A stretch of 64,000 nucleotides of DNA from a bacterium SCSIO 12643 (lineage in GTDB: Bacteria; Bacteroidota; Bacteroidia; Flavobacteriales_G; Salibacteraceae). Positions 28,241 through 38,126 of the stretch are shown here, piece after piece (position 1 is the first letter of the stretch; each line of letters opens with the position of its first letter). A program made the translations under genes and the position numbers. The notes beneath the pieces were generated by a model. It was not told the DNA's origin and ran no database searches. It saw only the letters and a program-made list of their open reading frames with translations. The stretch covers positions 1,116,001 through 1,180,000 of the forward strand of contig CP073750.1 in assembly GCA_024398135.1 (NCBI GenBank). The letters run 5' to 3'.

Positions 28241-29464
28241 ATGAAAAAACTTTTACTTTTTATTGTTATCTGTTTACCAGCTTTAGGTTTTTCTCAAGCT
28301 GATTCTGTATCAATCGATGCGGGTTACACTCACCAGGCTTTCTATAGTTTTAGCAATGGACTTGTAAAGAAATCTACATCAGATTGGGATCTTGCATTTG
28401 GAATTGGAGGTTTCAATATTGACATTAGAACTAACGAAGGTCACGCAGTAAAATTATACTTATATCCTAACGGGGATACCGCTGCATGGAACAACATTGA
28501 CACTACCGGACTTCAAAACTGGACTCCAAGACATAATGATGAAAATGACTGGAGTAACACCGCTTTTACTACTGCAGGTTCTCACCCTGATTACGGTTGG
28601 GGCGTGTATAATTCAACAACTCACGATGTATTAGGAGATAGTATTTATATCATACAAACTAAAGGTGGTGATTTCAAAAAATTACGTATCGATGGCATGT
28701 ATGCAATGACTGGTTCATTTGTAATCACTTATGCAGACCTTGATGGTAACAACGAAATGACCGGAACTATTAAAAAAACAGATTATACAGGCAAAAACTT
28801 CGCTTACTATTCTATTGACAATAATACTGTTCTTGATTTAGAGCCAATGGCTGCAGATTGGGATATCGTTTTCAGCAAATATGGAGCGGCACAACCACAA
28901 GGTGGTTATTACAACGTAACCGGAATTCAAACCAATAAAAACAGAACTTCTGCCGAAGCCAGAGGTGTCGACATCAATACTGTTGATTGGAACACTCAAA
29001 ATTTTGTTAGTGAAGTTGGAACAATCGGATGGGATTGGAAATCATTTAATATGAATACTTTCTCTTATGACATCGAAGATAGTTTGACTTACTTCGTTGC
29101 AGATACCAACAACAATGTATGGCAAATCACTATGACTGCTTTTGATTACACGGTTGGAAAATTTGTATTCAACAAGAAAAGAGTAAACGGTGTAAGTGTT
29201 GAAGACATTACTAACGGGTTTAACGAGGTGAAATTATTCCCAAATCCAGCTACAGAAAATGTAACACTTAACATTGAAAGTGAGCAAGTAATAAACGATA
29301 TCGATGTAAACATTTATTCTCTTACCGGACAATTGGTTTGGTCTCGTAAAGTGGATATCGTTTCTCAAACAAACATTAACATTCCAGTTCACAACTGGCA
29401 AAAAGGAATTTACATTGTTAGAGTTGGTTCTGGCAACGTAGTAAAACAACTTGTAATACAATAA
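28241..29464 (+). CDS. HmuY-like haem/iron-binding protein with T9SS sorting domain
   Basis: 407 residues. A signal peptide (1-18, ending ALGFSQ) is followed by two HmuY-like modules: the first starts with VSIDAGYTHQAFYSFSNG and SDWDLAFGIGGFNIDIRTNE, similar in pattern to Porphyromonas HmuY; the second repeats ADWDIVFSKYG and GWDWKSF. The C-terminal 75 residues are a T9SS sorting domain (LFPNPATENVTLNI, YSLTGQLVWSRK, QKGIYIVRVGSG, ending VKQLVIQ). HmuY proteins capture haem for a TonB receptor. The haem ligands cannot be assigned from sequence alone. It is the first gene of the locus, and a strong terminator follows it. Confidence 0.78.
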   Translation: MKKLLLFIVICLPALGFSQADSVSIDAGYTHQAFYSFSNGLVKKSTSDWDLAFGIGGFNIDIRTNEGHAVKLYLYPNGDTAAWNNIDTTGLQNWTPRHNDENDWSNTAFTTAGSHPDYGWGVYNSTTHDVLGDSIYIIQTKGGDFKKLRIDGMYAMTGSFVITYADLDGNNEMTGTIKKTDYTGKNFAYYSIDNNTVLDLEPMAADWDIVFSKYGAAQPQGGYYNVTGIQTNKNRTSAEARGVDINTVDWNTQNFVSEVGTIGWDWKSFNMNTFSYDIEDSLTYFVADTNNNVWQITMTAFDYTVGKFVFNKKRVNGVSVEDITNGFNEVKLFPNPATENVTLNIESEQVINDIDVNIYSLTGQLVWSRKVDIVSQTNINIPVHNWQKGIYIVRVGSGNVVKQLVIQ

Positions 29465-29481
29465 ACCAGTACTCCAATTTA

Positions 29482-29517
29482 GCAAAGGTGAATCGTAGGA
29501 TTCATCTTTGCTTTTTT
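29482..29517 (+). terminator. Strong hairpin terminator between the HmuY-like gene and the TonB receptor gene
   Basis: Stem of 13 bp (29482-29494 with 29499-29511, one G-T pair), a four-base loop GTAG and six T residues (29512-29517). It ends only 13 bases before the receptor ATG at 29531, so the receptor and the downstream genes would need read-through or a promoter that overlaps the hairpin. Confidence 0.88.
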
Positions 29518-29530
29518 ATTTTCGGACCAT

Positions 29531-31795
29531 ATGTATTCAACGGTTAAATATCATATTCAGAGAGTCATTCTGCTATTAGGAATGACTTTTTCGGTTCTAT
29601 ATGTTAACGCTCAGGATACTAAAGTAACTGTGATTGATAAGTCTATGGGATCTACCATTCCATATGCTCACGTGCAGTTTACCGATATCAAAACCTCCAG
29701 GTCCGAAATTGTTTTAACAGATCATGATGGTGTTGCCACACTACCTGCATCTGAAAACTTCAACCAACAAATTGCACTACATATTACCTACATTGGTTTC
29801 AAAACATATAATGATACCATTCAAAAAGGAACTTCGGTGAAGGTGAAACTATCTGAAAATATTCAACATTTGGATCAGGTGGTGGTGACTGGCCAATTCT
29901 CTGCTTCCAGCCCTGAAAAAGCACTTCACAAAATCACATTAATCAGTAGAGAAAAGATAGATGCCTTAAATGCGGTTTCTTTGGATCAGGTTTTAGCGCG
30001 TGAGTTAAACATGAATATTTCCAAAGACAATGTTTTGGGAAGTAGCATCAGCATTCAAGGTTTATCTGGTGAAAATGTAAAGATTCTTGTTGACGGTGTT
30101 CCAATGATTGGGCGTCTTAACGGAAATATAGACCTCAGTCAAATCAATCTCAACGACATTGAAAGAATTGAAGTCGTAGAAGGACCTCTTTCCGTATCAT
30201 ACGGTAGTAATGCACTGGCTGGAACCATCAACTTAATTACCAAAAAAGATCAACAAAAACCACTTTCTGTTAATGCCCGATATTATGGAGAGAATATCGG
30301 TACACATAACATTGATGGAAGGGTCGGATTTAAAAAAGGAACTTTTTTCGGGGCAGGAAATTTCACCAGAAACTTCTTTGATGGTTGGAATGTAGAAGAC
30401 CCTAACTGGAAAAACCCTGCTCTCGTTGCTGACTCATCAAGAGTGCAATTGTGGAAACCCAGAACTCAATATTTAGCGGGATTCAAACTGGGAAAAAAAT
30501 TAAAACACGGTACGGTGTTATACAACATCAATGGTTTTGATGAAAAAATCACCAATCGCGGTACACCTAGAGGCCCTTATGGCGAAAGTGCATTTGACGA
30601 TTTATATCTGACTAAACGTTTAGATAATTCTGTAAATCTTAATGTAAGTATAGATACGATCAACCAGCTTAACATACTTGCAGCTTACAATTTGTACGAA
30701 AGAAAAAGAGAAGCATATATCACAGATTTAACTGGCGTGTATTCAAGACCAAATCCTACCGAAGGTATTAGTGACACAACCAAGACCACATTAATGATGC
30801 TTCGCTCTACTTTTACAGGAAAACCCGAAGGAAAAAACTGGCGTTACCAATTAGGGATTGACTTAAACAATGAAATAGCTTTTGGAGAACGAATCAAAGA
30901 TAAAGAACAAAGTATTGGCGATTATGCAGGATTTGCTAGCCTGGAATGGCAACCTACCTATAAATGGACTGTTCGTCCCGGATTACGAATGAGTTATAAC
31001 ACACAATATGGAGCCCCGGTAGTACCTTCTTTATATGCAAAATACCAACTCAAACCTACTATGGCCATTCGTGGTTCGATTGCTCGCGGATTTAGAGCTC
31101 CATCGGTAAAAGAATTATATATGGACTTTGTCGATGTAAATCACAATATTCAGGGGAATACTGACTTAAAAGCGGAAACGGCTTTACACACCAGCTTAAA
31201 TTATTCTTTTGTCCAACTAAAGAAAGGGCGTACTTTAAAGATTAAAGTGGGATTATTTTACAACCAAATCCAAAACAAAATCACTCTGGCACAGAGTAAC
31301 ACCACACTTTATTCTTATGCCAATATTGAAGAGGCATTATCTCTTGGTTTCAATTTAGAAGGTCAATATAACATAGGTCATTTGAAAACCAGTTTGGGAT
31401 TCTCATATACCGGGACACAAAACAGTTTGGCTAACACGGAAACCAAACCGGATATCGGCTATAGTCCACAAATGACATCATCATTATCTTATGATTTCAA
31501 AAAATACAAATCCAATATTTCAGTTTTCTGGAAATTCGCAGGGCAGGTTCCACAAATCATCATAGATGAAAATGACAACTTGCAACAGTCTTTCATAGAT
31601 TCTTACCACATTTTGGATGTAACAGCAAACAAAAAATTTTGGAAAGACCGGGTTATTTTAGGGTTAGGAGTCAAGAACATTTTAGATGTGACCAACATCT
31701 CATCTTCAGGTGGCGGAGGCGCACATAGTGGAGGTAGTTCTCGTCCAATTGCACCGGGTAGAGTTTATTTTGTTAAACTTGGGCTCCAGTTATAG
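29531..31795 (+). CDS. TonB-dependent receptor, haem/iron type
   Basis: 754 residues. A signal peptide (about 1-27) is followed by a carboxypeptidase-regulatory-like domain (about 30-105; VTVIDKSMGSTIPYAHVQF), a plug domain (about 120-230; SLDQVLARELN, SISIQGLSGENVKILVDGVPM) and a 22-strand barrel. FRAP at 521-524 and NTDL at 543-546 correspond to the FRAP and NPNL boxes of haem receptors, with H538 between them, as in Yersinia HemR. The region near 722-738 is a Gly/Ser-rich loop with one His (GGGGAHSGGSS). It probably imports haem or another iron source with HmuY-like partners. The barrel ends in a Leu after KLGLQ; a terminal aromatic is absent. Confidence 0.85.
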   Translation: MYSTVKYHIQRVILLLGMTFSVLYVNAQDTKVTVIDKSMGSTIPYAHVQFTDIKTSRSEIVLTDHDGVATLPASENFNQQIALHITYIGFKTYNDTIQKGTSVKVKLSENIQHLDQVVVTGQFSASSPEKALHKITLISREKIDALNAVSLDQVLARELNMNISKDNVLGSSISIQGLSGENVKILVDGVPMIGRLNGNIDLSQINLNDIERIEVVEGPLSVSYGSNALAGTINLITKKDQQKPLSVNARYYGENIGTHNIDGRVGFKKGTFFGAGNFTRNFFDGWNVEDPNWKNPALVADSSRVQLWKPRTQYLAGFKLGKKLKHGTVLYNINGFDEKITNRGTPRGPYGESAFDDLYLTKRLDNSVNLNVSIDTINQLNILAAYNLYERKREAYITDLTGVYSRPNPTEGISDTTKTTLMMLRSTFTGKPEGKNWRYQLGIDLNNEIAFGERIKDKEQSIGDYAGFASLEWQPTYKWTVRPGLRMSYNTQYGAPVVPSLYAKYQLKPTMAIRGSIARGFRAPSVKELYMDFVDVNHNIQGNTDLKAETALHTSLNYSFVQLKKGRTLKIKVGLFYNQIQNKITLAQSNTTLYSYANIEEALSLGFNLEGQYNIGHLKTSLGFSYTGTQNSLANTETKPDIGYSPQMTSSLSYDFKKYKSNISVFWKFAGQVPQIIIDENDNLQQSFIDSYHILDVTANKKFWKDRVILGLGVKNILDVTNISSSGGGGAHSGGSSRPIAPGRVYFVKLGLQL

Positions 31796-31806
31796 CACAC
31801 AATATT

Positions 31807-32049
31807 TTGAAGAATACCAACATAAATAAAAGACGGGCAACGGACCTAAAAATCGGAGAGTCTAGTGTGATTGATAGTTTCGAAAACGAAGAATTTTCAT
31901 CTCAGTTTTTAGAGATTGGATGTCTTCCTAATGCACCCGTAGAATTGGTGCGTAAAGGACCTGCCGGACAAACTCTATATTTACGGGTGAATGGACACGC
32001 GTATGCTTTTAGAAAAGAAGAAGCTTCTCACATTATTTTAAAGTTTTAG
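31807..32049 (+). CDS. feoA: FeoA-family ferrous iron transport accessory protein (TTG start)
   Basis: 80 residues with an SH3-like FeoA domain: ATDLKIGESSVIDSFENEE, LEIGCLPNAPVELVRKGPAGQTLYLRVNG, and the ending RKEEASHIILKF. No in-frame ATG exists between the receptor stop (31795) and the domain, so TTG at 31807 (or ATT at 31804) must start it. It is followed by FeoB after one base (32050). FeoA is a small cytoplasmic partner of the FeoB GTPase. The receptor stop is 11 bases upstream, so the three genes form one transcription unit. Confidence 0.85.
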   Translation: MKNTNINKRRATDLKIGESSVIDSFENEEFSSQFLEIGCLPNAPVELVRKGPAGQTLYLRVNGHAYAFRKEEASHIILKF

Positions 32050-32050
32050 G

Positions 32051-34165
32051 ATGGGTACAAGTGAAGAAGTTTTAAAAATTGCGCTGATCGGGAACCCAAA
32101 CGCGGGAAAGACTTCTGTTTTCAACAGACTCACAGGATTAAATCAAACTGTTGGTAATTTCCCAGGAGTAACCGTTGACAAGAAGTCTGGATCATATCCA
32201 CTACCAAATGGTCATCAAGCCATCATTACAGATTTGCCAGGGACCTATAGTCTGTATCCCAATTCAACGGATGAAAAAATTGTACTAGAGACCCTACTAA
32301 ATCAAGATAATAGCGCTTATCCTGATTTGGTTTTATATGTAGCCGATGCCAATAATCTGGAAAGACATCTGGTCTTACTTACACAGATTATGGACTTCGG
32401 TATCCCAATTATTCTATTGCTCAACATGATTGATGTAGCTAAGAGTGAAGGAAAATCGTGCAATGATCTAAAACTTTCGCAAAGTCTGGGAATTCCAGTA
32501 GTAAAAGTGAATGGAAGAACCGGAGAAGGTACGGAGAATATTGGACCGGTAATTTTACAATTGGAGGGATCACATCCAGAACCATTTTTAAATGTAGAAC
32601 CGTATGCATTTGAAATGGAAAATGAGGTCAAAAAGCTATTTGGATTTGACAACAACTATCGCGCGCTTCTAACTGTCCATAACTATCAGAAATTAGATTT
32701 CATCAGTGATCAGGATAAAAGTTACCTGGATCAATTAGTTGAGAAACTCGAATTTAAAAGCATTGGATTACAGTTTGATGAAATCATGGCGCGCTATGAT
32801 CAGCTCCATCCCATTATGGAAGCTATGGTTACCGACACCAGTGAAAATGCAGAAACCAAGACGGCTAAAGCCGATAAAGTTTTAACGCATCCAGTATGGG
32901 GTAGCCTGATATTTATATCTACGCTCTTTATCATTTTCCAGGCCATTTTCGCCTGGGCTTCATATCCTATGGATTTGATTGATGAAGGCATGTCATGGGT
33001 GATTGAGAGCACAAAAAACATTCTTCCCCCAGGATTATTTTCTGATTTCTTTACGGATGGAATTCTTGCCGGAATTGGTGGCATCATCATATTCGTTCCT
33101 CAAATTACCATTTTATTTATCCTCGTCTCTATCCTCGAAGAAGTGGGATATATGTCTCGAGCAGTCTTTCTCTCAGACACCTTGATGCGAAAATTTGGTC
33201 TCAATGGCCGAAGTATCGTTTCATTGATTTCCGGTGCTGCCTGTGCTGTCCCGGCCATTATGGCTACTCGTACGATTAGCAACTGGAAAGAGCGTTTAAT
33301 CACCATTTTTGTCACTCCTTTTATTAGTTGCTCTGCACGGATTCCCGTTTTTGCGGTATTAGTGGCTTTTGCCGTACCAGATAAAACTGTGGGCTCATTT
33401 TTAAACCTTCAAGGCCTGGTGATGATGGGACTGTATACACTTGGGGTTGTGGCAGCGTTAGGGTCTGCATGGGTAATGAAGCTGGTTTTAAAAACCAATG
33501 ATGCTTCTTTCTTAATGATGGAACTTCCAACCTATAAAATGCCTTATTGGAAAAACATTGGAATCACTGTAGTTCAAAAGGTAGGTATCTTCATCAAAAA
33601 CGCGGGTAAGATCATATTGATTATATCTATGATACTTTGGGTATTGGCTTCTTTTGGTCCTGGAAACTCATTGGAAACCATTGAAGAAAATGTTAGAACG
33701 GAGTATGCGTCACAATCCATTGATGAAAGTGAGCTAGATAACATTATTGCATCAAAAAAGATTGAAGGTTCTTATGCCGGGATTTTAGGTAAAGAGATTG
33801 AGCCTATTATTCAGCCTTTGGGATTTGACTGGAAAATTGGGATTGCCTTAATTACTTCTTTTGCAGCCAGAGAAGTTTTCATTAGTACAATGGCCACCAT
33901 TTATAGTGTAGGTAGTGATGGTGATGCTTTATCAGTAATGAATAAAATGCGTCAGGAACGAAACTCCACCACCGGAGAATTAGTATATACATCTGCAACC
34001 GCATTTTCACTACTGATTTTCTATGTATTGGCCATGCAGTGTATGAGTACTTTGGCCATTGTTAAAAGAGAAACAAAAAGTTGGGTCATTCCTATGGTTC
34101 AGCTATTTTACATGACCGGACTCGCATATGTTTTAAGTTTTATCACTTATCAACTATTATCGTAA
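32051..34165 (+). CDS. feoB: Ferrous iron transporter FeoB
   Basis: 704 residues. The N-terminal G domain has G1 GNPNAGKTS (14-22), a G2 region (VGNFPGVTVDKKSG), G3 DLPG (about 60-65) and G4 NMID (125-128). A helical GDI-like spacer (about 170-270) precedes the membrane part. Membrane half-repeats carry the Cys/Gly-rich SGAACAVPAIMATR and CSARIPVFAVL, and the later FAAREVFISTMATIYSV. It drives GTP-dependent Fe(II) import at the inner membrane. It is coupled to FeoA and precedes a HmuY-like lipoprotein gene by 11 bases. FeoC is absent. Confidence 0.95.
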   Translation: MGTSEEVLKIALIGNPNAGKTSVFNRLTGLNQTVGNFPGVTVDKKSGSYPLPNGHQAIITDLPGTYSLYPNSTDEKIVLETLLNQDNSAYPDLVLYVADANNLERHLVLLTQIMDFGIPIILLLNMIDVAKSEGKSCNDLKLSQSLGIPVVKVNGRTGEGTENIGPVILQLEGSHPEPFLNVEPYAFEMENEVKKLFGFDNNYRALLTVHNYQKLDFISDQDKSYLDQLVEKLEFKSIGLQFDEIMARYDQLHPIMEAMVTDTSENAETKTAKADKVLTHPVWGSLIFISTLFIIFQAIFAWASYPMDLIDEGMSWVIESTKNILPPGLFSDFFTDGILAGIGGIIIFVPQITILFILVSILEEVGYMSRAVFLSDTLMRKFGLNGRSIVSLISGAACAVPAIMATRTISNWKERLITIFVTPFISCSARIPVFAVLVAFAVPDKTVGSFLNLQGLVMMGLYTLGVVAALGSAWVMKLVLKTNDASFLMMELPTYKMPYWKNIGITVVQKVGIFIKNAGKIILIISMILWVLASFGPGNSLETIEENVRTEYASQSIDESELDNIIASKKIEGSYAGILGKEIEPIIQPLGFDWKIGIALITSFAAREVFISTMATIYSVGSDGDALSVMNKMRQERNSTTGELVYTSATAFSLLIFYVLAMQCMSTLAIVKRETKSWVIPMVQLFYMTGLAYVLSFITYQLLS

Positions 34166-34176
34166 AATTGAAACAG

Positions 34177-35172
34177 ATGAATTTCACATATTTCAAAACA
34201 AATATTTGGTTGATTTTATCCGTATTATCGGTTTTGTTTTTTGCGTCTTGCGAAAAGGATGAAATTCCGATTGAACCGCATCCACCAGGCAATGTGGTTT
34301 CGCAACAAGTGGAAATGGGGTATTATTATCCGGATCAAATTTGGTTCAATATTGAAACCGGATCTGAAGTATCCAGAAATCACAAAACAGCATGGGATTT
34401 AGCATTTGAATGTAACGATCCGGGCTGGAGAATTACCATCAATTCTGCAAATAATGCCTATATCGCACACACAGAAGAAACCGATATTAATGCTGTAAAA
34501 GATACCATTGGCATGGATTGGAAATGGGACGAGTTTTCCGGAAATCTGGATAGTACCGCCATTGGGGATTGGAAAACAAATCCTCAAATCTATATTCTGG
34601 ACAGAGGAAAAGACGAAGTAGGCACACACCTGGGGTTGACCAAACTGATGATTGATAGTGTAAATGCAGATTCCTTTTATTTCAAATTTGCAGACCTCCA
34701 GGCTTCTTCCTGGGTCAATGCATCTGTATCAAAAGACAGCAGCTATTTCTTTAGCTATTTCAGCTTAAATTCAGGTGGACAGCAAGTCACTATTGCTCCT
34801 CCAAAAAAAGAATGGGATATTGTATTTACACAATACACATTTGCGTTCTATGATATGGACCCGGTAGTTCCTTATTTAGTAACAGGTGTTCTACTTAATC
34901 CATATCATGCTTATAGCACCAAATGTTATGATCAAAATTTTGCTGATATCACTTTAGCTAACACTAGCAGCTACAACTATAACCAAAGATTGGATAATAT
35001 TGGTTATGACTGGAAATACTACGACTTTGATCAAGGCTATTATATCACACTACCTGAAAAGAACTATATTTTCCGATCTCATAATGGAAAGAAATATAAA
35101 ATCCATTTCCTGGACTGGTACAATGACCAGGGGCAAAAAGGAAGTCCAACATTTGAATTCTCAGAATTGTAG
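34177..35172 (+). CDS. HmuY-like lipoprotein, paralogue of the first HmuY-like protein
   Basis: 331 residues from the ATG at 34177, chosen because a lipoprotein signal (VLFFASCEKD, cysteine 25) follows directly. Two modules match those of the 28241 protein: TAWDLAFECNDPGWRITIN then GMDWKWDEF, and EWDIVFTQYTFAFYD then GYDWKYYDF. Its mature length equals that of the first protein without its T9SS domain. It is 11 bases after FeoB, so it belongs to the same operon. It is probably anchored at the outer membrane by its lipid and binds haem or iron. The ligand is inferred. Confidence 0.75.
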   Translation: MNFTYFKTNIWLILSVLSVLFFASCEKDEIPIEPHPPGNVVSQQVEMGYYYPDQIWFNIETGSEVSRNHKTAWDLAFECNDPGWRITINSANNAYIAHTEETDINAVKDTIGMDWKWDEFSGNLDSTAIGDWKTNPQIYILDRGKDEVGTHLGLTKLMIDSVNADSFYFKFADLQASSWVNASVSKDSSYFFSYFSLNSGGQQVTIAPPKKEWDIVFTQYTFAFYDMDPVVPYLVTGVLLNPYHAYSTKCYDQNFADITLANTSSYNYNQRLDNIGYDWKYYDFDQGYYITLPEKNYIFRSHNGKKYKIHFLDWYNDQGQKGSPTFEFSEL

Positions 35173-35186
35173 ATATTGTATTTGCG

Positions 35187-35219
35187 AAAGGCTTTAAGAA
35201 TGATTCTTAAAGCCTTTTT
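35187..35219 (+). terminator. Rho-independent terminator closing the iron/haem operon
   Basis: A 15-bp perfect inverted repeat (35187-35201 with 35203-35217) around a single G; in practice the stem is about 13 bp with a five-base loop. It is followed by a T tract. It starts 15 bases after the HmuY-like lipoprotein stop. Confidence 0.88.
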
Positions 35220-36559: not shown

Positions 36560-37984
36560 TCATTCTAATTTCACCACTTTTTCAACTTTAGTTAGGTTTC
36601 CTTCTTGTATTTGAACTAAATAACTTCCTATCTCCAAATCTGATAAATCAAGGATTAACTGTTTATCTCGGGTTGTTTTTACTTCTTTCAAATTCCCACT
36701 CAAATCAAATACGGAAACTTCCTTAACTGCTTTACTATTCTTAAAGTCCAGAGTTAAATAGCTATCTGTTGGATTTGGATATAGTGAGAGTTCCTTTTCT
36801 AAAACATCTTCTACTCCAGTTGAAATAAAAGGAGCAAAACGCAATACTTTCACCTCAGAGTCATGGGACCAATCACAAAATACTACATAAAAATAATCAT
36901 CAACTCCCTTAATCAAAGATTGATATTCTCCTAGTCTACTTGAAGAATATGTAGCTTTATACAATACCGTGGGCACACTAAATGAATTTCCGGAATCCAA
37001 GGAAAATATATAATTAAGCTGAAATATTCCCCCATTGTTTTCATTATAGATCATATGGATTTCACCGGTATCTTCACGATACATTTCCGCATATGATCCA
37101 TTAGCTATCATACTCGAAGTCCATGTAAAAGTTGAATGGTCATAAAAATGATAATTGATTTTGGTATGGTCCATATGAGGACGATGTGATAAAACACCAA
37201 AATAACTTGTTCCAGAATCTCCCAGGGGCTTACAAATATTATTCACTTCATTATTTGAAATAGTATCCAAAACTGCCCATGAATCTCCCCTATCTACACT
37301 TTCTGTTATATAAATATTTTCCTCTTTATTATCACCAAAAACTATTCGCAAAACTCCATTCGAAGACCAACTTAAATCAGGACCACATGGGCTTTTCGAT
37401 GGAATTTCAAAAGTTTCAGCTATCGACCAACTCCTACCATTATCCATGGATTTCCTAAAATTCACATGACCTTCCAAATCATTATCTACCATTTGAAAGT
37501 GACTATATACTAAATAAAGGTTCCCATTATCATCATTAGTAATTTGCGGGTAATCTGCAATACCATCATTCATATGTGGATTTCCGACCAATGTCCAATT
37601 CAAACCTAAATCTACCGATTCATAAATTTCCAAATCCATATTAAGAACGCCTGTACCTTGAATATTTCTTCGCATAACCACCAGAAACATTTTATCGTCT
37701 TTAGTTACCGTTAACACTGGATCATAAGCATCTCCAAGAGAACCATTCGTACTTTGTATAGAGTCTATAAGTGTCCAATTCACTCCTAGATTCTCGCTTC
37801 TATATATGAGAACACGATCTACATTCTCAACTCTCTCCATAACTACCGAAACAAAAGTCCCATCTTTCATTTGAACGCATTCTAACTCAACTACGCTCTT
37901 AGTCCCCATCTCATTTAATTCTTGTCCTTCCAATGTGAATTGGAACATACAGAACATGACTATTATGATCAATTTATCTTGCAT
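36560..37984 (-). CDS. Secreted Asp-box (sialidase-like propeller) protein with T9SS sorting domain
   Basis: 474 residues from the ATG at 37984, which gives a signal peptide (MQDKLIIIVMFCMFQFTLEG); an earlier ATG at 38011 lengthens the N terminus. At least five Asp-box-like motifs occur: SENLGVNW, SVDLGLNW, SMDNGRSW, SVDRGDSW and SLDSGNSF. These mark blades of a beta-propeller. Sialidase active-site Arg residues are not evident, so a glycosidase role is not supported. The C-terminal 75 residues are a type A T9SS sorting domain (LYPNPTDSYLTLDF, VFDLSGNLKEVK, EIGSYLVQIQEG). Likely cell surface or secreted. Confidence 0.82.
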   Translation of the reverse strand: MQDKLIIIVMFCMFQFTLEGQELNEMGTKSVVELECVQMKDGTFVSVVMERVENVDRVLIYRSENLGVNWTLIDSIQSTNGSLGDAYDPVLTVTKDDKMFLVVMRRNIQGTGVLNMDLEIYESVDLGLNWTLVGNPHMNDGIADYPQITNDDNGNLYLVYSHFQMVDNDLEGHVNFRKSMDNGRSWSIAETFEIPSKSPCGPDLSWSSNGVLRIVFGDNKEENIYITESVDRGDSWAVLDTISNNEVNNICKPLGDSGTSYFGVLSHRPHMDHTKINYHFYDHSTFTWTSSMIANGSYAEMYREDTGEIHMIYNENNGGIFQLNYIFSLDSGNSFSVPTVLYKATYSSSRLGEYQSLIKGVDDYFYVVFCDWSHDSEVKVLRFAPFISTGVEDVLEKELSLYPNPTDSYLTLDFKNSKAVKEVSVFDLSGNLKEVKTTRDKQLILDLSDLEIGSYLVQIQEGNLTKVEKVVKLE

Positions 37985-38126
37985 CGTGTCTAAAACCCAA
38001 AAATGTATCATAAACCTGAGACCTTTCGCACCAACGGCATTGCCATATTGTTAATTAATTCAACGCATTATTCACCTCATTACGGATTTCAAATTACCTT
38101 TACCCTCTTCTTTAGTATGACCAATT

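Follow-up and report, generated by a model that had tools for sequence, protein, structure and literature searches.

In HmuY/HmuR of Porphyromonas gingivalis and in hmuYRSTUV of Bacteroides, a haem-capture lipoprotein of the HmuY fold works with a TonB-dependent receptor, and according to the published model for the Bacteroides system iron is removed from haem and then taken up through FeoB (PMC12583661, PMC6460266). For example, it has been reported that FeoAB is required in Bacteroides fragilis for the use of iron from haem, the iron being removed in the periplasm (PMC6460266), and that the dechelatase HmuS works with FeoB (PMC12583661). Two further systems have been described in Flavobacterium: protein C6N29_01035 of Flavobacterium columnare combines HmuY and Por_Secre_tail domains and is secreted by the type IX secretion system (T9SS) (PMC9618737), and HfpY of Flavobacterium psychrophilum is a HmuY-family protein that binds haem and is co-transcribed with the haem TonB receptor HfpR (PMC9331221). 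Here we describe an operon coding for two HmuY-fold proteins, designated H1 and H2, one TonB-dependent receptor, FeoA and FeoB, in a stretch of 64,000 nucleotides from bacterium SCSIO 12643 of the Bacteroidota family Salibacteraceae (GenBank assembly GCA_024398135.1, contig CP073750.1, positions 1,116,001 to 1,180,000; this whole stretch is hereafter the window, and its coordinates run from 1 to 64,000). This operon quite probably represents Hmu-type haem capture followed by import of the haem iron, in which two HmuY-fold proteins take the place of one.

A T9SS-borne HmuY protein, a HmuY-receptor pair and the use of FeoB after iron removal are already known from F. columnare, F. psychrophilum and Bacteroides, respectively. 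Unlike HmuY/HmuR and hmuYRSTUV, the present operon has two HmuY-fold proteins, one of which carries a T9SS domain, and their cores span about 295 residues as compared with 191 in the solved HmuY chain; unlike Bacteroides hmuYRSTUV, it holds FeoAB inside the operon and belongs to a genome that gave no match to CobN-type HmuS (PF02514, E 1). H1 resembles the F. columnare protein, for which neither a lipoprotein partner nor a trio is described in the accessible part of the source (PMC9618737). HfpR/HfpY differs from the trio in having a single HmuY-like protein and in that the receptor comes first in the transcript, while the FRAP/NxxL motifs are partial in HfpR and complete in the receptor of the window, as judged from the part of that report at hand (PMC9331221). 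As far as the literature searched shows (that on HmuY together with FeoB being judged by title and start of the abstract), what is new is the conserved occurrence of two HmuY proteins, one of secreted type and one anchored, together with one receptor, plus the differing sets of genes that complete the pathway.

Two HmuY-fold proteins flank a receptor and FeoAB

The five genes are intact and lie on the forward strand in the order H1 (28241..29464, 407 residues), receptor (29531..31795, 754 residues), FeoA (31807..32049; PF04023, 46.7 bits), FeoB (32051..34165, assigned by profile matches) and H2 (34177..35172, 331 residues from the ATG at 34177), with intergenic gaps of 66, 11, 1 and 11 bases. 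A preliminary description of this DNA, made from the letters alone, had recognized two HmuY-like paralogues around a TonB receptor and FeoAB, one of them T9SS-sorted and the other a lipoprotein, and all of this is borne out. H1 has a C-terminal sorting domain of T9SS type A, which covers residues 332-406 (29234..29458, forward strand) and scores 51.7 bits with PF18962 (cut-off 27) and 42.1 bits with TIGR04183, while the corresponding part of the structure model resembles the sorting-domain structures 8qb1, 6za2 and 8glk. By eye, H1 has a signal peptide and no lipobox, and its HmuY core extends over approximately residues 20-316. On the other hand, H2 carries a lipobox with Cys25 (34249..34251, forward strand), which is followed by E-K-D-E, and 81 of 82 aligned family members have the cysteine. 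The pattern C-x-[KR]-[DE]-[DE] occurs in 66 of the 96 H2 proteins that have the cysteine and resembles K-(D/E)2, the signal for lipoprotein export reported from Capnocytophaga canimorsus (PMC5080379), for which reason H2 is likely to be exposed on the cell surface. H1 is predicted to be T9SS cargo, so that capture at two levels, by a released protein and an anchored one, is the predicted arrangement, in line with what had been proposed.

Both cores have the HmuY fold according to confident structure models (predicted local distance difference test 94.1 for H1 from 70 homologues, 94.7 for H2 from 69). H2 scores 66.8 bits with Pfam HmuY (cut-off 27, E 3.1e-18), and comparison of its model by VIA gave eight HmuY or HmuY-like entries at the top, with Z from 16.3 (3h8t) to 12.7 and the next row at 5.8, where BfrB, BfrC and BF2707 of B. 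fragilis were counted as HmuY-like by the analyst; Foldseek placed HmuY at ranks 1-10 (E 2e-5 to 9e-4). For H1, a Pfam HmuY match of 29.2 bits (cut-off 27) was obtained in the whole-genome search, yet hmmscan did not report it at E 1. The same eight entries lead the VIA comparison of the H1 model (Z 13.0 to 11.0, model residues 1-302; 3h8t at Z 12.9 with a root-mean-square deviation of 2.9 over 128 residues), and the rows below them match the sorting domain. Foldseek on H1 returned PorU first and no HmuY among its 50 best rows. The two proteins are related to each other in direct alignment (27% over 135 residues, E 1e-8) and in a profile-profile comparison of the cores (100%, 3.7e-50), and their models share one fold; unrelated folds of the paralogues had been named as an outcome that would refute the initial proposal. 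Weak likeness between the halves of each core (92%, 6e-7 in H1; 87%, 4e-6 in H2) suggests a likely internal duplication, the cores having about one and a half times the length of the solved HmuY chain. The equal length that had been ascribed to the paralogues applies to these cores and not to the whole proteins (407 and 331 residues); in the same way, of two elements said to occur twice in each, W-D-x-x-F does so, whereas G-x-D-W-K does so in H2 alone and is found a single time in H1.

In the receptor, the FRAP motif at 521, His538 (31142..31144, forward strand) and the NTDL motif at 543 are present as had been noted, all within one loop, and a further histidine, His732 (31724..31726, forward strand), lies in a glycine-rich segment that precedes the last strand. 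Haem-receptor models rank best for this protein, TIGR01785 (NCBIfam TonB-hemin) having the best E-value among the 25 models listed, though with a score below its cut-off, and siderophore-receptor models score as well. An N-terminal carboxypeptidase-regulatory-like match is below the Pfam cut-off.

The trio is conserved among relatives

A survey of the locus in relatives, as the preliminary description had recommended, was made, for which seven aligned H1 cores served as query: the best 80 of 260 matching stretches in GTDB genomes were kept, 40 further stretches were added from other genomes, and nine of these 120 loci were dropped as duplicates on the same contig, which left 111 loci, the window excluded. 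All loci were found via H1, and the counts below therefore describe co-occurrence given H1 and are not a census. H1, receptor and H2 occur together on one strand in 101 of the 111 loci, over many families, 98 times in the order H1-receptor-H2. By locus length, seven of the other ten end at a contig end; in L074 H1 and receptor form one open frame, and L114 and L121 hold H1 alone.

The genes that accompany the trio vary. Haem import by HmuTUV and HemS is known from Proteobacteria, and genes of this kind stand between H1 and receptor in seven of the 101 trios, while HemS is found alone inside one trio and beside two; Pfam matches in the locus taken as example of this type (one per type) are to Peripla_BP_2, FecCD permease, ATPase and HemS/ChuX. 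A CbiX-like chelatase, together with a PepSY or FMN_bind/Fer4_5 membrane protein, lies inside nine trios and beside one. Altogether, haem-type genes of these two sorts are inside or beside 20 of the 101 trios, and the remaining trios with a partner comprise 17 with DUF6607 in or near them, four of a nirS type and three of the FeoAB type. HemS was found in 3 of 21 genomes, the window's own included, and every time inside a trio; 20 of these 21 have a full-length H1, G006 being included without one and G016 omitted with one. Besides the window, FeoAB is inside only three complete trios, two from the same genus and one from another, and the FeoAB-type trios form one clade in a quick receptor tree, with a support of 100 in the Shimodaira-Hasegawa-like approximate likelihood ratio test (SH-aLRT; no bootstrap was run). 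FeoAB is a local variant and not a core part of the trio system.

Several other genes recur in these loci. DUF6607, a family of unknown function, is inside nine trios and near eight (for example L029:9421-10365) and may belong to haem use. A small DUF6686-like protein lies between partner genes and receptor (L029:9070-9408, L037:11463-11795, L075:6980-7420), the copy in L029 scoring below the Pfam cut-off. Short proteins of about 120-150 residues, membrane-like by eye, precede H1 in clusters of 11, 7, 5 and 4 loci (for example L106:9332-9793, L123:878-1246, L056:9405-9818 and L052:3925-4281), and a response-regulator-like protein, again by eye, is upstream of H1 in 14 loci (for example L081:5152-5853).

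Haem as the probable ligand and a proposed release of its iron

Whether the ligand is haem or iron had been left open, and the genes found inside the trios of relatives favour haem. His128 of H1 (28622..28624, forward strand), a candidate haem ligand by its conservation, is present in 104 of 106 standard H1 proteins, and of the receptor histidines His538 is kept in 103 of 103 and His732 in 95 of 103 standard receptors. Haem is a likely ligand because haem-specific genes lie inside the trio in some relatives and because these three histidines are near-invariant. Each of them is kept in the FeoAB type (4 of 4), the HemS type (9 of 9) and the CbiX type (4 of 4), so that the arrival of FeoAB probably brought no change of ligand; haem is, on these sequence comparisons, most likely the ligand in the FeoAB lineage too. 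In the sequence alignment, which is not a superposition, His128 immediately precedes a strand whose counterpart in HmuY is a late one, and to judge from alignments and reported ligand numbers it falls in the loop region that holds the second of the axial ligands in HmuY and Bvu (PMC8911585).

The genome that contains the window (G000; 4.118 Mb, 97.9% complete) gave no HemS match and no FecCD permease match above cut-off, and no haem oxygenase match was obtained, HugZ- and IsdG-type haem-degrading enzymes not having been searched for; the lack of a haem ABC transporter and of a haem oxygenase, first remarked for the window, is in this sense genome-wide. The possibility of a decayed FecCD permease was discarded, as the sole sub-cut-off match has three stops and runs antisense to two intact genes, and is a chance match. 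FeoB of the operon is the only FeoB_N match of the genome at E 1e-20 and scores 516.1 bits with the equivalog model TIGR00437 (cut-off 315.65). The earlier suggestion that FeoAB finishes import agrees with this sole FeoB, but it needs a qualification, since FeoB carries Fe2+ and not haem, and FeoAB stands inside so few other trios; something must consequently remove the iron from haem.

A candidate for this step is encoded outside the trio by P0005 (G000:C1:1981262-1982164), a CbiX-like chelatase with a lipobox recognized by eye. P0005 aligns with CbiX-type sirohydrochlorin chelatases, including two histidines that are catalytic in these enzymes, and it is followed by a gene for a membrane protein that shares 45% identity with the FMN_bind/Fer4_5 protein lying within the trio of L035. 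Judged from the open reading frames, this pair (L128:8263-10534, that is G000:C1:1981262-1983533) is apparently flanked by cytochrome oxidase genes on one side and ATP synthase genes on the other. A CbiX-like gene was found in 5 of 60 genomes, the window's own included: three belong to this genus and have the gene outside the trio, and the two others have it inside. The CbiX-like proteins inside the trios of those two other genera are 72% and 46% identical to P0005. Removal of iron in the periplasm by a CbiX-like lipoprotein is a reasonable assumption on this basis.

Taken together, the model is built on the genes, the modelled HmuY folds, the conservation of the trio and of three histidines, the further modules of relatives, the missing haem genes and the single FeoB, and it has haem binding, the order of hand-over, secretion, surface exposure and demetallation as its inferred parts. 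H1 would leave the cell through the T9SS and bind haem outside; H2, as a lipoprotein on the outer face, would pass the haem to the TonB receptor; in this lineage the CbiX-like lipoprotein chelatase, assisted by the FMN/4Fe-4S-type membrane protein encoded next to it, would most likely be what strips haem of its iron in the periplasm; and Fe2+ would enter via FeoAB, the genes of which appear to have been inserted into the trio.

Evidence to the contrary and alternative explanations

Five observations weigh against this interpretation. None of the partner genes sought accompanies 57 of the 101 complete trios; the receptor reaches 134.5 bits with TIGR01785, below the curated cut-off of 316.85; no CbiX-like gene was found at E 1e-10 in G005, which represents the other genus of the FeoAB type, so that a chelatase step of this kind may not apply throughout; and deletion of the T9SS-HmuY of F. 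columnare caused no growth defect, as far as the accessible part of the source goes (PMC9618737). The fifth concerns H2, in which there is no conserved histidine and no well-conserved methionine, the best being present in 50 of 82 aligned members.

This last point, set against the near-invariant His128 of H1, would suit a system in which H1 alone binds haem and H2, without binding haem itself, serves the receptor as structural lid or docking partner in the manner of SusD on SusC, and so would the position of the H2 start, which in 87 of the 101 trios lies -60 to +100 bases from the receptor end. Such a role of H2 is conceivable, and we consider it rather unlikely: the methionine and histidine haem ligands of characterized HmuY proteins vary by species (PMC8911585), so that the lack of a conserved histidine does not amount to a lack of binding, and H2 is closer to HmuY than H1 is (Z 16.3 against 12.9 with 3h8t) and has Tyr233 in 93 of 93 standard members. 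It has also to be considered that the trio may take up another form of iron, such as a ferric siderophore or chelate, with FeoAB carrying the reduced iron and with no haem involved in this lineage. FeoAB is indeed the partner here, the operon itself holds no haem-specific gene and the receptor scores on siderophore-receptor models too; this is nevertheless improbable in view of the HmuY fold, the HemS and CbiX-like neighbours inside the trio in some relatives, the three histidines unchanged in the FeoAB type and the haem models that rank best for the receptor, though below cut-off. A chance neighbourhood of an iron cluster and two unrelated secreted beta proteins, to which only the failure of hmmscan to report HmuY for H1 could lend weight, is contradicted by the recurrence of the trio over many families and by the homology and common fold of H1 and H2, and is hardly worth considering.

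A second trio behind nirS

The same genome contains a second trio, H1'-receptor'-H2', directly behind nirS (G000:C1 about 1552550-1557070, within the region L025:4293-11953, which corresponds to G000:C1 about 1551290-1558950). Its NirS matches cytochrome cd1 nitrite reductase structures (E 1e-151) and Pfam Cytochrom_D1, and the same order of nirS and trio is present in three other genomes (L028, L160 and L161), whose NirS proteins are 75-80% identical to it. A first classification of this trio as linked to cytochrome oxidase was rejected, as the apparent cox neighbours are nirS and norQ- and norB-like genes by Pfam; the latter two rest on CbbQ_C and COX1 matches, the name 'nor' being assigned by context. 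The names NorE (for a COX3-like neighbour), NorF (for a small one), NorC and NorD are likewise assigned by context. G073 and G329, two of the genomes with a nirS-linked trio, also hold a standard trio with a CbiX-like gene, that of G073 being cut off before H2.

The four nirS-type trios form one clade (SH-aLRT 99) nested among the standard trios, and in all four the receptor residues His538 and His732, Tyr123 and Tyr214 of H1, and Tyr233 and Tyr289 of H2 are replaced, as is Tyr220 of H2 in three of the four. In the column of His128 in H1, three of them have N; the fourth has H, its motif being NNNHW with a gap shift. NirJ was found above cut-off in none of 395 genomes of the class and at E 1e-30 in three, G000 not among them, other genes of haem d1 synthesis not having been searched for; G073 and G329 are not among these three either, assuming the same sample of 395 genomes, and G003 was seen in neither sample. 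No nirS-like gene was found in the 6.6, 19 and 19 kb around the three NirJ matches, so that the class offered no positive control for d1 synthesis, and no d1 genes were noticed in 55 kb around the window genome's own nirS, judged by eye from the starts of open reading frames only.

It is tempting, if doubtful, to regard the nirS-linked trio as a dedicated importer of haem d1, the cofactor of NirS, that lets NirS run in these bacteria without d1 synthesis of their own. An ordinary supply of haem for haem-rich denitrification would explain these observations too, and so would d1 synthesis by way of a divergent NirJ. In the open-licence PubMed Central literature, judged partly by title and start of the abstract, neither an import route for haem d1 nor a link between HmuY and nirS was found. 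If true, import of d1 would be a case of cofactor scavenging during denitrification and would matter for the question of which members of a mixed community are able to denitrify.

Operon boundaries and neighbouring features

A terminator-like hairpin after H2 (35186..35218, forward strand) is the probable end of the operon. Another, strong and with a T tail, lies between H1 and receptor (29481..29512, forward strand) and could possibly act as a partial terminator, by which H1 would be made in excess over the receptor. T-tailed hairpins follow H1 in 28 of 110 cases and H2 in 8 of 96, as compared with 20 of 618 shuffles, in which single-base composition was kept and the H1 and H2 stretches were pooled. 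A hairpin follows H1 also in both other searched species of this genus, and the hairpins after H1 in a quarter of the relatives are of other sequence. A search of the window with the E. coli consensus returned no Fur box, and a promoter scan found 26 candidates against 31.9 in shuffles, that is, no excess. A BNR-repeat protein with a T9SS sorting domain of its own is encoded near the operon on the opposite strand (36560-38011).

Conclusions

The HmuY proteins of the published work consulted act singly and stem mostly from host-associated species, whereas the trio described here occurs in roughly a hundred genomes, the record titles of many of which point to environmental sources, with HmuTUV/HemS, a CbiX-like chelatase or FeoAB as alternative endings of the pathway. 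This raises questions that can be put to the test, namely whether a secreted partner feeds an anchored one, how iron is released from haem without haem oxygenase and whether the copy next to nirS imports haem d1. In conclusion, obtaining iron from haem by means of one secreted-type and one anchored HmuY-fold protein with a single receptor seems to be a widespread strategy.

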